From positions 1-26,676 of the IMG/VR virus record IMGVR_UViG_3300046355_000289: 26,676 nucleotides of DNA. One strand, 5' to 3'. The notes beneath the pieces are model-generated. The model was not told the origin of the DNA. It saw only the letters and a program-made list of their open reading frames with translations, and searched no databases. Origin of the DNA: a virus. The translations under genes were made by a program, and so were the position numbers. Positions 4,261 to 23,037 of this stretch are shown here, piece by piece; position 1 is the first letter of the stretch, and every line of letters begins with the position of its first letter.

Positions 4261-4348
4261 GGAAGTTTGGGTGAGTGGTTTAAACCAATAGTCTTGAAAA
4301 CTATCGAACAGAAATGTTCCGTGAGTTCGAATCTCACAGCTTCCGCCA
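4261..4348 (+). tRNA. tRNA-Ser (UGA)
   Basis: Acceptor GGAAGTT pairs with AGCTTCC (one G-U); G discriminator, encoded CCA at 4346-4348. Anticodon stem ATAGT/ACTAT encloses loop CTTGAAA, anticodon TGA. A long variable arm (about CGAACAGAAATGTTCC) and T loop TTCGAAT confirm a class II serine tRNA. First tRNA after the terminator. Confidence 0.95.
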
Positions 4349-4350
4349 AG

Positions 4351-4424
4351 TTCTCGCTGGTGTAATGGCAGCACAAGAATCTCCAAAGTTCTTGGTCGGG
4401 GTTCGATTCCCTGGCGGGATGCCA
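4351..4424 (+). tRNA. tRNA-Trp (CCA)
   Basis: Anticodon stem AGAAT/GTTCT encloses CTCCAAA, anticodon CCA. D stem GTG/CAC, T arm CGGGG-TTCGATT-CCCTG, G discriminator and encoded CCA (4422-4424) as in bacterial tRNA-Trp. The acceptor stem TTCTCGC/GCGGGAT has a T-T mismatch at the first pair (1-72) and a U-G, so it is weaker than its neighbours. Two bases separate it from tRNA-Ser. Confidence 0.88.
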
Positions 4425-4459
4425 AGTTTGCCACATAAAATTATTTTTATGTGTATAAT
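4425..4459 (+). promoter_or_regulatory. TTGCCA-N20-TATAAT dyad element, copy 1
   Basis: Directly after the tRNA-Trp CCA: AGTTTGCCA, then an inverted repeat CACATAAAA (4432-4440) / TTTTATGTG (4445-4453), then TATAAT (4454-4459). The spacer is 20 bp, longer than optimal for sigma70. Same layout as copies 2 and 3, but the arms differ in matched fashion. Would drive tRNA-Glu. Confidence 0.7.
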
Positions 4460-4468
4460 AGTTTTAAC

Positions 4469-4544
4469 ATTCGGTTCGACAAGCGGTTTAAGTCACCACC
4501 CTTTCACGGTGGCATCACGGGTTCGAATCCCGTACCGAATACCA
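4469..4544 (+). tRNA. tRNA-Glu (UUC)
   Basis: Acceptor ATTCGGT/ACCGAAT, discriminator A, encoded CCA 4542-4544. Anticodon stem CCACC/GGTGG with loop CTTTCAC, anticodon TTC. T arm ACGGG-TTCGAAT-CCCGT. Its CCA tail overlaps the first bases of a 14-bp inverted repeat that closes the following spacer RNA. Confidence 0.95.
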
Positions 4545-4638
4545 TATTGAAGCACATTTAAATCCTTAACAGGATCGGGATTGGTAAGCCGGAACCTCTA
4601 CTTAGTAAGTTCATTTCACCTTAGTGTGCTTCAATATG
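4543..4638 (+). ncRNA. Long-stem RNA segment between tRNA-Glu and tRNA-Tyr
   Basis: CATATTGAAGCACA (4543-4556) is perfectly complementary to TGTGCTTCAATATG (4625-4638), 14 bp. The enclosed 68 nt can form small hairpins: ATCC/GGAT (4562-4565/4572-4575), CGG/CCG, and GAAC/GTTC (4592-4595/4609-4612). The stem overlaps the CCA of tRNA-Glu and the first G of tRNA-Tyr. It could be an RNase III-type processing stem releasing a small RNA, like the stable RNAs C and D of the T4 tRNA cluster, but I see no sequence similarity to a known RNA. Confidence 0.6.
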
Positions 4639-4722
4639 GGAAAGAAGCATCAATGGTGATGCAGTGGACTGTAAATCCGCCGCCTTATGGCATGACTGGT
4701 TCGATTCCAGTATTTCCCACCA
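4638..4722 (+). tRNA. tRNA-Tyr (GUA)
   Basis: Acceptor GGGAAA/TTTCCC (seventh pair G-A mismatched), A discriminator, encoded CCA 4720-4722. D arm GCATCAATGGTGATGC; anticodon loop CTGTAAA, anticodon GTA; class II variable arm with GCC/GGC; T arm ACTGG-TTCGATT-CCAGT. Confidence 0.93.
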
Positions 4723-4757
4723 AGTTTGCCACACAAGAATAAAAACTTGTGTATAAT
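4723..4757 (+). promoter_or_regulatory. TTGCCA-N20-TATAAT dyad element, copy 2
   Basis: After the tRNA-Tyr CCA: AGTTTGCCA, inverted repeat ACACAAG (4731-4737) / CTTGTGT (4746-4752), TATAAT 4752-4757. Nearly identical to copy 3 at 5262-5296. Would drive Thr-Gly-Asn. Confidence 0.72.
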
Positions 4758-4769
4758 ATAGTTTTAGTA

Positions 4770-4843
4770 GCCCTATTAGTTAAATGGTATAACACTTGAC
4801 TTGTAATCATGGATTGGTAGTTCGATTCTATCATAGGGCACCA
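4770..4843 (+). tRNA. tRNA-Thr (UGU)
   Basis: Acceptor GCCCTAT/ATAGGGC, A discriminator, encoded CCA 4841-4843. Anticodon stem CTTGA/TCATG (one T-T mismatch) around CTTGTAA, anticodon TGT, reading ACA. T loop TTCGATT. Starts 13 nt after the TATAAT of the preceding dyad element. Confidence 0.93.
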
Positions 4844-4845
4844 AA

Positions 4846-4919
4846 GCGGGATTAGTTTAATGGTAAAACGATAGCCTTCCAAGCTTTTGTTATCAGTTCG
4901 ATTCTGATATCCCGCTCCA
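4846..4919 (+). tRNA. tRNA-Gly (UCC)
   Basis: Acceptor GCGGGAT/ATCCCGC, T discriminator, encoded CCA 4917-4919. Anticodon loop CTTCCAA, anticodon TCC; the anticodon stem ATAGC/GCTTT has a T-T mismatch. T arm ATCAG-TTCGATT-CTGAT. Two bases from tRNA-Thr. Confidence 0.92.
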
Positions 4920-4920
4920 T

Positions 4921-4996
4921 TCCCTGATAGCTCAGTTGGTAGAGCGCCGGACTGTTAATCCGTAGGTCGCTGGTTCGAGCCCAGCTCGGGGAGCCA
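4921..4996 (+). tRNA. tRNA-Asn (GUU)
   Basis: Acceptor TCCCTGA/TCGGGGA, G discriminator, encoded CCA 4994-4996. D arm GCTCAGTTGGTAGAGC; anticodon loop CTGTTAA, anticodon GTT; T arm GCTGG-TTCGAGC-CCAGC. One base from tRNA-Gly. Its CCA is the beginning of the next 14-bp stem. Confidence 0.94.
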
Positions 4997-5177
4997 TAAT
5001 TGAGAATGTGAGCGAAAGAAGTAGGAATCCCAACTGTTAGGGAGATTAACCATCCTAGCAAGACCGCATCCATTATCCGGAGAAGGCCTAGTATCCCAAA
5101 ACTAGGATGAAAGCGTGATGTCTAGGAGATGGGCTTTTAAAACCATCTTAAACACACGACAGTATTCTCAATTATGG
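4994..5177 (+). ncRNA. Long-stem RNA segment between tRNA-Asn and tRNA-Met
   Basis: CCATAATTGAGAAT (4994-5007) is perfectly complementary to ATTCTCAATTATGG (5164-5177), 14 bp. The enclosed 156 nt hold hairpins AATCCC/GGGAGATT with a bulged G (5026-5031/5040-5047), CCTAGT/ACTAGG (5087-5092/5101-5106) and AGATGG/CCATCT (5127-5132/5143-5148). CATCCTAG (5051-5058) can alternatively pair with CTAGGATG (5102-5109). No protein frame of note. As with the first segment, the stem includes the upstream tRNA's CCA. A discrete stable RNA is inferred; identity unknown. Confidence 0.65.
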
Positions 5178-5184
5178 TTGTTAT

Positions 5185-5261
5185 GGGCCGGTAGCTCAGT
5201 TGGTCAGAGCAGTGGACTCATAATCCATTGGTCATAGGTTCAAGTCCTATCCGGCCCACCA
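5185..5261 (+). tRNA. tRNA with CAU anticodon (Met, or Ile2 if modified)
   Basis: Acceptor GGGCCGG/CCGGCCC, A discriminator, encoded CCA 5259-5261. D arm GCTCAGTTGGTCAGAGC; anticodon stem TGGA/TCCA around CTCATAA, anticodon CAT; T arm ATAGG-TTCAAGT-CCTAT. The G1-C72 pair argues against initiator tRNA. Elongator Met versus lysidine-modified Ile2 cannot be decided from the sequence alone. Confidence 0.93.
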
Positions 5262-5296
5262 AGTTTGCCACACAAGAACAAAAACTTGTGTATAAT
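5262..5296 (+). promoter_or_regulatory. TTGCCA-N20-TATAAT dyad element, copy 3
   Basis: After the tRNA-Met CCA: AGTTTGCCA, CACAAG (5271-5276) / CTTGTG (5285-5290), TATAAT 5291-5296. Differs from copy 2 by one base over the element. ATG 5306 follows 9 nt after the -10, so the glycosyltransferase mRNA would have at most a few leader bases. Confidence 0.75.
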
Positions 5297-5305
5297 ATAA
5301 TTACA

Positions 5306-6343
5306 ATGAATAAAATTAAAATTGCAATTCTTGTTCCTGCATATAAAGAAGAATTGGTAATTGATAAGACAATAACATCACTATTGACTGCTGGTTTTTT
5401 AAAGAATGATATCTATGTTGTTGATGATTGTTCTGAAGATGAAACTAGTAATATTGCTTTGAGTTATGGTGTTAATGTCTTAACTCTTACCAAAAATTCT
5501 GGCAAAGCTGGTGCAACAAGAGCTGGACTGAATCATTTTAATCTTACCGATAAGTACGATTGGATTACTCTAGTTGACGGTGATTCGATGTTATCGGAAG
5601 ATTTTATTCCAGTGTTAGAGAAGGCAATTGTTAAAGATTCTACACCAGGTCTTTATGTTGGTCAAGTAGTTAGCATTAAGAATGATTCATTGTTTTCAAC
5701 TTATAGAGCATACGAATATGCTTACGGACATGAGATTGTTAAAAAGGGACAAGACAACTTTGGTACTATATTTGTGAGTCCAGGTTGTTGTAGCATTTAT
5801 CGTACTGATGTATTGAAACAATTAGATGTATCAAGTGATACTCTAGCTGAAGATATGGACTTAACTATACAAACGCACAGATTAGGTTATAAGGTTCGAT
5901 ATATTCATGAACTACGAGCTTATACGCAGGATCCGAACAATTTTCGAGATTACTATAAACAGATTACTCGATGGTTTAGAGGACTTTGGCAAATCATTAA
6001 GAAGCATAAGATTTTAAGTCTAAAACGTTGGAATAGAGTTGATATTTACCTAAAGATTATTACACTTGATTCCATAGTTTTTAATAGATTTTTTATGATT
6101 GCTGTTATCTGGACATTTTTTGATATGAAAGTCTTATTGATAGGAATATTAATGGACTATCTTATACAGGCCGCACTTTCAGTCTATGCCGCATTTCTAG
6201 CACGCAACTGGAAAATTATTGTCTACAGTCCAGCATATTATTTTATCGGTTTATTAAATTCTGCGGCATATCTTAAAGCGTTCATTGAAGTATTTGTTCT
6301 TGGTAAGATTGTTTTGAGTTGGAACAAAGTAAAGAGGTATTAA
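5306..6343 (+). CDS. Membrane-bound family 2 glycosyltransferase (polysaccharide-synthase-like)
   Basis: 345 aa from ATG 5306; an upstream in-frame start at 5228 is rejected because it lies inside tRNA-Met. GT-A nucleotide-sugar domain: VPAYKEE at 10-16, VVDD at 38-41, VDGDS (90-94, DxD), AEDMDL (181-186, catalytic Asp) and QITRW (219-223, the QxxRW of processive synthases). The C-terminal ~90 residues form several membrane segments. This is the layout of hyaluronan/poly-GlcNAc/cellulose-synthase-type GT2 enzymes, though short. It might modify the host envelope during infection (inference). It has near-leaderless expression from the dyad promoter and is followed by a gene for a secreted protein. 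Confidence 0.88.
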   Translation: MNKIKIAILVPAYKEELVIDKTITSLLTAGFLKNDIYVVDDCSEDETSNIALSYGVNVLTLTKNSGKAGATRAGLNHFNLTDKYDWITLVDGDSMLSEDFIPVLEKAIVKDSTPGLYVGQVVSIKNDSLFSTYRAYEYAYGHEIVKKGQDNFGTIFVSPGCCSIYRTDVLKQLDVSSDTLAEDMDLTIQTHRLGYKVRYIHELRAYTQDPNNFRDYYKQITRWFRGLWQIIKKHKILSLKRWNRVDIYLKIITLDSIVFNRFFMIAVIWTFFDMKVLLIGILMDYLIQAALSVYAAFLARNWKIIVYSPAYYFIGLLNSAAYLKAFIEVFVLGKIVLSWNKVKRY

Positions 6344-7909: not shown

Positions 7910-7938
7910 TTGCCAAAGCGATAAAAATCGTGTATAAT
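7910..7938 (+). promoter_or_regulatory. TTGCCA-N17-TATAAT promoter with CGAT/ATCG dyad
   Basis: TTGCCA 7910-7915, 17-bp spacer, TATAAT 7933-7938. The spacer contains CGATAAAAATCG (7919-7930), a dyad with A-rich loop resembling the tRNA-locus elements. Upstream lies an 8-T run (7901-7908) with only weak hairpin potential. Confidence 0.82.
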
Positions 7939-8780: not shown

Positions 8781-9076
8781 GTGGTATTTACATATTAAAA
8801 ACAAAAGACGGTTACCGTGTGAATTTTACCAAAGAATATGTTTACCTCTTTGGTTCATATAATGATGATACTATGAATTATAACATTGATGCTGAAATTC
8901 TCAAAAGAATTTTCGGTAATTGTGCTGTAATTCCTAATGAAATAATGGCAATTCAATCAGCCAAAGGTATAAGTAGGTTGCACAATGAAACGGAAGATGG
9001 CATTATGATTTTAGATTCTTATGCCGATTATACCTTTAAGGACTTATTAGATGGCAAGGCAAACAAAACAGAATGA
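8777..9076 (+). CDS. Hypothetical protein, 99 aa, GTG start
   Basis: GTGA coupling to the previous gene. The protein starts MSGIYILKTKDGYRVNFTKE, beta-rich, and ends with acidic and charged residues. Not recognised. Overlaps the following gene by 26 nt. Confidence 0.8.
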   Translation: MSGIYILKTKDGYRVNFTKEYVYLFGSYNDDTMNYNIDAEILKRIFGNCAVIPNEIMAIQSAKGISRLHNETEDGIMILDSYADYTFKDLLDGKANKTE

Positions 9077-10133
9077 GATTAAACAGAGAATTCTAGGAAC
9101 AACGGCAGAGCCGAAATATGAAAAACTAGAATCCCAGAGTGAGGTAGCGGCCGCATTGAATTGGTATCAGTCACATAAAGATACTAAGGATGCGGTTAAA
9201 TACATTTCCGATTATGCCAAGAAGAATAAGATTGAAGGTAGACTAGACACCACTAAAGTATTTTCAACAACAGGATTTTTATGTCGTATCGTATCCAACG
9301 GTACGATTGTATCGGATGCTTTCAGAGCAACACTAGAAAACAGTTTAAAATCTATTCTCACAATGGAACCTGCCAAAGAGGTCGTGGTTGAGAAAACAAC
9401 ACCAACAGTAACTATCCAAGATAGAATGAATGAGAAGGTCTCCGAAATCATTGGAGAGTTGGAGGGTGCGATTGATGAATTGGTTATCAGTAAGTTTAAA
9501 ACAACACCATCACCTTACGGCATTATGCACGATAAGGCAAAAGGTATGCACGCTACTCGTATCATCGATTGGGCTAAGATTCGTAGGCAAGAATTTGATG
9601 AGGTAATTAATACTGATGATGAACAATTAAAAGAAGGTTATTCCAATTTTACAAAAACAGAATTGAAGAAGTTGGTTGCCTATTGTGATTCTATTATTAC
9701 AGATGCGATGAAGATTACTGATGAAAGTAAAGCTGGTCGCAAACCTCGTAAGAAGAAATCCAAAACACCAGAGCAGTTGGTTGCAAAGGTTCAGTATTTG
9801 AAATCTAATGATGAATATAAACTAGAATCACAGGATCCAAAACAAATCATTGGTGCCACATCAATTTGGATATTCAATATAAAGACAAGAAAACTTGGTG
9901 TATATCATGCATTAGATAGTCAAGGCTTTGGTGTTAAAGGAACAAGTCTTACCAATTTTAGTGAAATGAAGTCAGTACAGAAAACACTAAGAAAACCAGA
10001 AACAATATTACCTGAAGTAGTTAAGGGTGCTAAAGTTTACCTGAGAAACTGTATAGAGTCGGTAAACAGTAAGGCTAGTGGATTGACAGGCAGGTTAAAT
10101 TCTGATACAATCCTTTTAAAGATTATAAAATAA
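9051..10133 (+). CDS. Conserved T4-like phage protein, 360 aa, unknown function
   Basis: Begins MARQTKQNEIKQRILGT; segment EVAAALNWYQSHKDTKDAVKYISDYAKKN (residues ~31-59) and a central basic stretch AGRKPRKKKSKTPEQ (about 229-243) are typical of a family present in most marine T4-like phages, usually left as hypothetical. A helical N-terminal half is joined by the basic linker to a mixed C-terminal part (SIWIFNIKTRKLGVYHALD). The linker suggests nucleic-acid contact. AAGGA lies upstream of ATG 9051. Confidence 0.85.
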   Translation: MARQTKQNEIKQRILGTTAEPKYEKLESQSEVAAALNWYQSHKDTKDAVKYISDYAKKNKIEGRLDTTKVFSTTGFLCRIVSNGTIVSDAFRATLENSLKSILTMEPAKEVVVEKTTPTVTIQDRMNEKVSEIIGELEGAIDELVISKFKTTPSPYGIMHDKAKGMHATRIIDWAKIRRQEFDEVINTDDEQLKEGYSNFTKTELKKLVAYCDSIITDAMKITDESKAGRKPRKKKSKTPEQLVAKVQYLKSNDEYKLESQDPKQIIGATSIWIFNIKTRKLGVYHALDSQGFGVKGTSLTNFSEMKSVQKTLRKPETILPEVVKGAKVYLRNCIESVNSKASGLTGRLNSDTILLKIIK

Positions 10134-10141
10134 GGTAATTT

Positions 10142-10303
10142 ATGAGTGATGAGAGAAGGCTCTATATGAGAGCTGTGTTGGCTGGTCAATTACCAGAAAA
10201 TTATATTACCGATAAAGAATTACATTTCATCTATGATAATATGTGGAAAGAAATGATTGGCTCACTATTGCCGCAACAATCGTGTAGTTTGAGTTATAAT
10301 TAG
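10142..10303 (+). CDS. Small hypothetical protein, 53 aa
   Basis: ATG 10142 with AAGG upstream to TAG 10301-10303. Sequence MSDERRLYMRAVLAGQLPEN followed by a helix (DKELHFIYDNMWKEMIG). Fits the 170-nt gap between the two longer genes exactly. No family recognised. Confidence 0.75.
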   Translation: MSDERRLYMRAVLAGQLPENYITDKELHFIYDNMWKEMIGSLLPQQSCSLSYN

Positions 10304-15778: not shown

Positions 15779-15780
15779 TG

Positions 15781-15831
15781 TGTTGTTTTCCTGCAACAGA
15801 GGCTTGTGTTTTGCCTGGATACCTGTATAAT
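15781..15831 (+). promoter_or_regulatory. Promoter with upstream TGTTG/CAACA dyad
   Basis: TGTTG (15781-15785), loop TTTTCCTG, CAACA (15794-15798), then GGC-TTGTGT (-35, 15804-15809), 16-bp spacer, TATAAT 15826-15831. Downstream TTGAGTTGATAA resembles the leader of the promoter at 179. Drives the Gp88 gene at 15867. Confidence 0.8.
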
Positions 15832-15866
15832 GGTTTATGTTGAGTTGATAAAGAAAGCAAGAAATT

Positions 15867-16637
15867 ATGAGTTTAAAGTTATTAAGTGTTGGTAATCCAA
15901 AAACCTTGAAAGGTATGAAAGAAGGTTATAATACCTATATTCTACATTTGGCGCCCGCTTCATTGTCTGGTTATAATACTTGTCCAAAAGCTACTGAAGG
16001 ATGTAAGGCAGCTTGTCTTAATACTGCTGGTCGTGGTGGTATGTTCAAAAAAGGCGAAAGCACCAACACTATTCAGCAAGCTCGTATCCGTAAAACAAAA
16101 ATGTTTTATGAAAATCGTAATGAATTTTTTAATTTACTAGTTAAAGATATTATTTTGGCTATTAAGCAATCAGAGAAAAAAGGTTTAATTCCTGTTTTCC
16201 GTTTAAATGGTACTAGTGATTTGAGTTTTGAAAAATATGGTTTTACTATTGCTTATGATGGTTATACAATTGATTATGCTAATATTTTTGAAAGATTTCC
16301 TAATGTACAATTCTATGATTATACAAAGGTTCTTGGTCGTAAAGTGAAAGATATCAAAAATTACCAATTAACATTTTCAGCTGCTGATGGTAATGACCGT
16401 GATGTAGAATCAGCCATGTATAATGGCATGAATGTTGCAGTAGTTTTCGGTATCAAAAAAACTGAACCAATGCCTGAGTATTATAATGGTGTACAAGTAT
16501 TTAATGGCGATGAAAGTGATTTACGCTTTTTGGATCCTAAAAATATTATTGTTGGTTTGTATGCAAAAGGTAAAGCCAAAAAAGATACTACTGGCTTTGT
16601 AAAATATCCTTCTATTATGTTAAAATTGGCGGCTTAA
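15867..16637 (+). CDS. Gp88-family protein, 256 aa
   Basis: Matches the 'gene product 88' family (PF17338) of phages: NTYILHLAPASLSGYNTCPKAT followed by EGCKAACLNTAGRG (five-cysteine region, residues ~38-54 with C39, C46, C50), QQARIRKTKMF, then VFRLNGTSDLSFEK and a C-terminal 'NIIVGLYAKGKAKKD'. Cysteines and arginines suggest a metal or Fe-S site, but the biochemical role is not known to me. Good leader with a promoter and repeats just upstream. Confidence 0.88.
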   Translation: MSLKLLSVGNPKTLKGMKEGYNTYILHLAPASLSGYNTCPKATEGCKAACLNTAGRGGMFKKGESTNTIQQARIRKTKMFYENRNEFFNLLVKDIILAIKQSEKKGLIPVFRLNGTSDLSFEKYGFTIAYDGYTIDYANIFERFPNVQFYDYTKVLGRKVKDIKNYQLTFSAADGNDRDVESAMYNGMNVAVVFGIKKTEPMPEYYNGVQVFNGDESDLRFLDPKNIIVGLYAKGKAKKDTTGFVKYPSIMLKLAA

Positions 16638-22806: not shown

Positions 22807-23017
22807 AGAAGAAATGTTGAAGTTTGCTAGAGCAATCGAGAAGATGGTTGCCGAAACAGATTACAACCACATGGAAGCAATCGTTGAGTATTGCAAAGAA
22901 ACGGGCATGGAAATTGAATTGGCTGCCACTTTGGTAAACTCTAATTTGAAATCTAAACTTGAATCTGATGCTCAAGATTTGAATTTGTTACCGAAGTCAG
23001 CACGATTGCCTTTCTAA
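22796..23017 (+). CDS. 33: Late-promoter transcription accessory protein gp33
   Basis: 73 aa; T4 gp33 is longer (112). The blocks YNHMEAIVEYCKETGMEIELAATLV, and C-terminal AQDLNLLPKSARLPF correspond to marine T4-like gp33; the hydrophobic/aromatic C-terminus is the sliding-clamp binding end. gp33 is a co-activator bridging RNA polymerase and gp45. Position between dsbA and 59 matches T4. Confidence 0.8.
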   Translation: MPTKEEMLKFARAIEKMVAETDYNHMEAIVEYCKETGMEIELAATLVNSNLKSKLESDAQDLNLLPKSARLPF

Positions 23018-23037
23018 ATGATTTATTATGATATAAT
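23006..23037 (+). promoter_or_regulatory. Promoter giving a leaderless gene 59 mRNA
   Basis: TATAAT 23032-23037 ends 6 nt before ATG 23044. Upstream TTGCCT (23006-23011) would give a 20-bp spacer as in the tRNA-locus elements, but it codes for the end of gp33, so it may be coincidental. Confidence 0.65.

Follow-up and report, generated by a model that had tools for sequence, protein, structure and literature searches.

The three repeats that follow tRNA-Trp, tRNA-Tyr and tRNA-Met in this DNA are best read, judging from their sequence, as promoters within a phage tRNA array. It seems about evenly balanced whether each of them is a restart promoter combined with a read-through RNA hairpin behind the upstream tRNA, the hairpin probably marking or limiting 3' trimming. 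Such elements would help to explain how long phage tRNA arrays continue to be transcribed and how the transcripts are cut into single tRNAs. The repeats also make it possible to ask whether a single piece of DNA is a promoter for one transcript and, when carried within a second transcript, a hairpin that serves processing.

Source phage and tRNA array

The window, i.e. the whole stretch analysed, is a 26.7 kb IMG/VR virus record. Genes for a gp32-like single-strand binding protein, a helicase loader, an RNase H-like exonuclease and a baseplate lysozyme-like protein mark its source as a T4-like myovirus. Among deposited phages, cyanophages gave the best matches to gp32, and the relatives of the protein encoded at 9051-10133 are distant. 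The tRNA array (4261-5261, plus strand; ARAGORN, Rfam RF00005) consists of eight genes in the order Ser, Trp, Glu, Tyr, Thr, Gly, Asn, Met, of which tRNA-Trp (4351-4424), tRNA-Tyr (4638-4722) and tRNA-Met (5185-5261), all on the plus strand by ARAGORN, are the ones followed by a repeat. Above the gathering thresholds the Rfam search returned tRNAs only, and matches of the array to the phage collection were limited to the tRNAs as well. Downstream of the third repeat lies a glycosyltransferase gene (5306-6343, plus strand; GtrB-like PHROG match), which found no relatives when used as a query against viral contigs.

Boxes and spacing of the three repeats

As the preliminary description had stated, the same element, TTGCCA-N20-TATAAT, stands directly 3' of the three tRNAs, at 4428, 4726 and 5265. 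At each repeat the order is CCA-AGTTTGCCA, dyad, TATAAT. All repeats are on the plus strand. Copy 1 fills the tRNA-Trp/tRNA-Glu spacer (4425-4468), with TTGCCA at 4428-4433, the hairpin at 4432-4453, TATAAT at 4454-4459 and an expected start at about 4466. Copy 2 lies in the tRNA-Tyr/tRNA-Thr spacer (4723-4769; TTGCCA 4726-4731, hairpin 4731-4752, TATAAT 4752-4757, expected start about 4764) and copy 3 after tRNA-Met (5262-5305; TTGCCA 5265-5270, hairpin 5270-5291, TATAAT 5291-5296, expected start about 5303). The second and third copies, 95.6% identical over 45 nt, stem from a recent duplication and are therefore counted once. The 20-bp spacing, also claimed before, is exact in all three copies and far above chance: the window contains five TTGCCA-N14..22-TATAAT sites where 0.16 would be expected, a number reached in 0 of 100 shuffles. 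This supports the view that the spacing is not random.

TATAAT is perfect in every copy, and the predicted starts lie 3-6 nt ahead of tRNA-Glu, tRNA-Thr and the ATG at 5306. By inspection, no better -35 hexamer is present 16-18 bp from TATAAT, and TTGCCA at 20 bp falls outside the sigma70 spacing. Plain sigma70 works poorly with a 20-bp spacer. We infer that transcription may start at the repeats and that the long spacing would need a phage factor. The glycosyltransferase ATG is found 9 nt past the TATAAT of copy 3 and 3 nt after the expected start; if copy 3 promotes this gene, the mRNA would be nearly leaderless, its leader being about 3 nt long. A TATAAT box separated by 6 or 9 nt from an ATG is seen repeatedly in this phage family (window 1804, 14963, 23006, 10268 and 5265; L011 9437; L072 1906), so that several genes would yield leaderless or nearly leaderless mRNAs.

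Folding of the dyad

The dyad of copy 1 is CACATAAAA (4432-4440)/TTTTATGTG (4445-4453), and copies 2 and 3 have CACAAG/CTTGTG (4732-4737/4746-4751 and 5271-5276/5285-5290, respectively). Hairpins of 7-9 bp are predicted for each copy (-7.5 to -8.1 kcal/mol; -8.1 kcal/mol for copy 1 and -7.5 kcal/mol for copy 2); overall the hairpins are A+T-rich and modest, at -5.6 to -8.1 kcal/mol. When the inner spacer was shuffled with CA..TGTG held fixed, folding was better than that of the shuffles in copy 1 (p = 0.008), copy 2 (p = 0.0045) and copy 3 (p = 0.001). TTTGCC and TGTGTATAAT are invariant among the copies and are the source of the outer CACA/TGTG pairs. Since these outer pairs lie in shared sequence, the extra pairs amount to only two inner ones in copies 2 and 3 and five in copy 1.

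The preliminary description had further held that both arms changed together. Self-complementarity is indeed kept, but the pairing axis of copy 1 is one base off that of copies 2 and 3, and thus there is no column-by-column compensation. In a shared register of seven pairs, 97% pairing is retained and one of the seven is changed on both sides. Nothing supports the cruciform that had also been proposed; the arms are short and A+T-rich, with loops of 4-8. An intrinsic terminator was considered as well and rejected: the A+T-rich stems are followed by TATAATATAG and not by a T-run, and they were absent from the terminator scan.

A close relative, L006 (a marker protein is 91% identical), has orthologues of copy 1 (L006 120-157) and copy 2 (L006 556-601), after tRNA-Trp and tRNA-Tyr, respectively. 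At both shared tRNA sites the spacer is self-complementary despite altered arms. The first L006 copy differs from copy 1 by four bases in the spacer and still folds with -7.7 kcal/mol. In the second, a C-G pair has become U-G and is retained as a pair, which fits an RNA better than a protein-bound dyad. After tRNA-Met the element is absent from L006; hence copy 3 was either gained in the lineage of the window or lost in L006. Scans of viral contigs with the element pattern gave non-chance matches only in L006 and at one site in L017/L016, and a single scan of genome contigs gave three matches, none adjoining a tRNA. The version with 20-bp spacer and hairpin between tRNAs was found only in the window phage and one close relative.

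Promoter boxes without the dyad

A promoter-like site at 7910-7938 (plus strand; TTGCCA-N17-TATAAT with a CGAT/ATCG dyad) had been proposed as a relative of the repeats. It shares the boxes, with a 17-bp spacer, but its dyad is weak in the window (p 0.10-0.19 against shuffles) and missing from both orthologues found (in L006 and L009), which read TTGCCA-N17-TACAAT. Boxes with the long spacing likewise occur before protein genes. TTGCCT-N20-TATAAT at 23006-23037 (plus strand) has no hairpin and stands 6 nt before the helicase loader ATG, and TTGCCG-N21-TATAAT at 10268-10300 (plus strand), which stands 9 nt before the exonuclease gene and is kept in L020, has no clear hairpin in either phage. 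Further TTGCC-N20/21 sites without a clear hairpin are L072 -1906, L072 -5572, L073 -14185 and one in L077, which looks coding; the L073 (= L017) site folds weakly (p about 0.1).

These homologous boxes without a dyad indicate that the dyad is separable from the promoter and tied to the tRNA context; it probably does not belong to the promoter. The preliminary description had itself named loss of the dyad with retention of the boxes among the results that would speak against it, and this is what was seen at the 7910 orthologues in L006 and L009 and at the TTGCC-N20/21-TATAAT sites upstream of protein genes.

Promoters in tRNA gaps of other phages

Among 761 distinct tRNA-tRNA gaps from the fetched phage loci, some of 37-60 nt hold TTGACA-N17-TATAAT, ending 7-19 nt ahead of the next tRNA. 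Promoters inside phage tRNA arrays are thus of an ordinary kind. Spacer hairpins are more frequent in the tRNA-gap promoters (6 of 15) than in the remaining promoters from those loci (17 of 168). Fisher's test gives p 0.005 for this enrichment, which is based on 15 tRNA-gap cases, and p 0.048 when the lineage of the window is omitted. As a side observation, six loci (L025 12782, L026 9082, L028 5789, L030 7075, L031 3619 and L035 3383) show a promoter overlapping a terminator-like hairpin, with TTGAC-N17-TATAAT within the hairpin GGACATAG...CTATGTCC, then ATTTTTATT.

In the array of the window, all gaps of more than 2 nt form stems. Together with the enrichment of hairpins in tRNA gaps this argues for a role in read-through RNA, the 3' trailer of the preceding tRNA being favoured. 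A 3' trailer hairpin is also the best supported of the options offered in the preliminary description.

In the interpretation favoured here, each repeat combines two parts. A sigma70-type promoter (TTGCCA, 20 bp, TATAAT) would set transcription going again a few bases upstream of the tRNA that follows or of the glycosyltransferase gene. The short hairpin, which overlaps the promoter spacer, would be confined to transcripts that come through from the tRNA upstream. Placed 7-8 nt past the CCA end, it would probably mark or limit 3' trimming of that tRNA, and other folded spacers of the array may act likewise. An action of the hairpin at the RNA level, on the trailer of the tRNA, is again something we infer, as is the choice between helping and limiting the trimming.

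Alternative explanations

The dyad could mostly be due to chance, with CACA/TGTG contributed by the shared boxes, inner pairs arising easily in AT-rich DNA and copies 2 and 3 being duplicates. Consistent with this, three bacterial or archaeal matches to the outer pattern, none beside a tRNA, also have dyads of 6-8 bp, and the covariation score obtained with homologues from two lineages and one pair changed on both sides recurs in 49 of 500 shuffles. The covariation is weak because the element exists in only these two lineages. However, shuffles of the inner spacer give p 0.001-0.028 across five elements of the two lineages, and the stem of copy 1 survives in just 1-2% of trials of random four-base divergence. 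We regard chance as unlikely. It is likewise somewhat unlikely that the dyad is incidental to a promoter driven by a phage activator, in which TTGCC(A/G)CA would, much as at T4 middle promoters, be the box of a phage factor and define a second class beside TTGAC-N16-TATAAT. In 385 kb of related phages TTGAC peaks at 16 bp from TATAAT (36 of 55 sites counted) and TTGCC at 20-21 bp (12 sites, five of them tRNA elements), and the genes that have a non-tRNA site ahead of them include those of the helicase loader and the exonuclease. Yet the independent non-tRNA cases of this second class are few (about five), eight incomplete records hold no match to MotA (PF09158, PF09114) or AsiA (PF09010), and the folding of the tRNA-linked copies is left unexplained.

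A dimeric regulator of the MerR type would bind the spacer palindrome and, by twisting the DNA, make the -35 and -10 boxes usable. MerR-family promoters are recognised by a strong palindrome within a spacer of 19-20 bp; a 9-4-9 palindrome (firmicute MerR) and one of 22 bp (ZntR), each inside 20 bp, have been described (PMC1526738). Copy 1, with 9-4-9 in 20 bp, has just such a spacer palindrome. But the half-sites vary (CACAAG, CACATAAAA and CACAAAA) and the axis is off by one base, equal spacing is used elsewhere without a palindrome, and PF13411 was found neither in the window nor in seven related records, one of them 162 kb long, though these records do not cover complete genomes and the regulator could come from the host. 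On balance this explanation appears distinctly unlikely.

Spacer RNAs in phage tRNA arrays

Two other spacers of the array fold into RNAs with long closing stems. Spacer RNA X, between tRNA-Glu and tRNA-Tyr (4545-4637, plus strand; fold z -3.4), is closed by a 14-bp stem, CATATTGAAGYACATT/AGTGTRYTTCAATATG. A scan with the stem pattern matched at least 120 stretches. Among the matches listed, 108 of 115 distinct sequences have three or more extra pairs beyond the searched core, and the interiors are hypervariable (42-72 nt, 59 clusters). The closing stem around these interiors is constant, and its flanks show compensated changes (CATA/TATG, TTTA/TAAA, AATA/TATT, CATT/AATG, TAGC/GCTA). A typical copy begins 2 nt past one tRNA and ends 3 nt ahead of the next, often filling the gap exactly. 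Besides the window, loci are L006 873-960, L015 802-869 and 2094-2162, L019 3225-3292 and about 100 more in L081-L200. X had no match in Rfam and none in the deposited-phage collection, and its core strings were not found in the phage papers searched. X, which is spread over many large phages, represents a widespread and apparently undescribed family of structured RNAs in phage tRNA arrays and is a more interesting lead than the promoter-hairpin repeats. Nine X interiors (in L092, L095, L118, L134, L136, L169 and L192) contain GGTTCRAnnCC, a motif like the T-loop of tRNAs, as though pieces of tRNA had given rise to some X RNAs or were mimicked by them.

Spacer RNA Y, between tRNA-Asn and tRNA-Met (4997-5184, plus strand; fold z -3.3), is 94.5% identical in L006 (1177-1359) and partly present in L081; it also had no match in Rfam or in the phage collection. 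A 150-nt stem-closed spacer RNA at L006 321-470, with no Rfam match, has counterparts (71-90%) in the arrays of several other phages. In the relative L019, ARAGORN predicts a tmRNA gene (15780-16109, tag ANDNRFLMAA).

It is possible, though we put it forward tentatively, that such arrays are modular. Between the tRNAs would stand interchangeable spacer modules, either promoter-hairpins or RNAs with a closed stem (X and Y, for example). Folded within the primary transcript, these modules would direct how it is cut, and some of them would re-initiate transcription by way of phage-factor-dependent TTGCC-N20 promoters.

Comparison with known systems

Like MerR, ZntR and CueR promoters, the repeats have a palindrome in a 20-bp spacer between -35 and -10 (PMC1526738). 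They differ from this family in that a regulator gene was not found, the half-sites are variable and the boxes also occur without the palindrome. With T4 middle promoters they share TATAAT and a non-consensus upstream box, and the window phage is T4-like as well. In T4 middle promoters the MotA box is about 12-13 bp from the -10 box, whereas the upstream box of the repeats is 20 bp away, and MotA and AsiA domains were not found. The sigma70-type promoters in tRNA arrays of other phages resemble the repeats in gap length (37-60 nt) and in the closeness of TATAAT to the tRNA that follows, a few bases downstream. Those promoters, however, are TTGACA-like with 17 bp, whereas the repeats combine TTGCCA with a 20-bp spacer, and all tRNA-linked copies have a hairpin. 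Finally, as in tRNA 3' trailer hairpins and the stem-closed spacers of multicistronic tRNA transcripts, the predicted stem lies a few nucleotides past CCA, between tRNAs of one transcript; unlike in these, it overlaps the spacer of a promoter.
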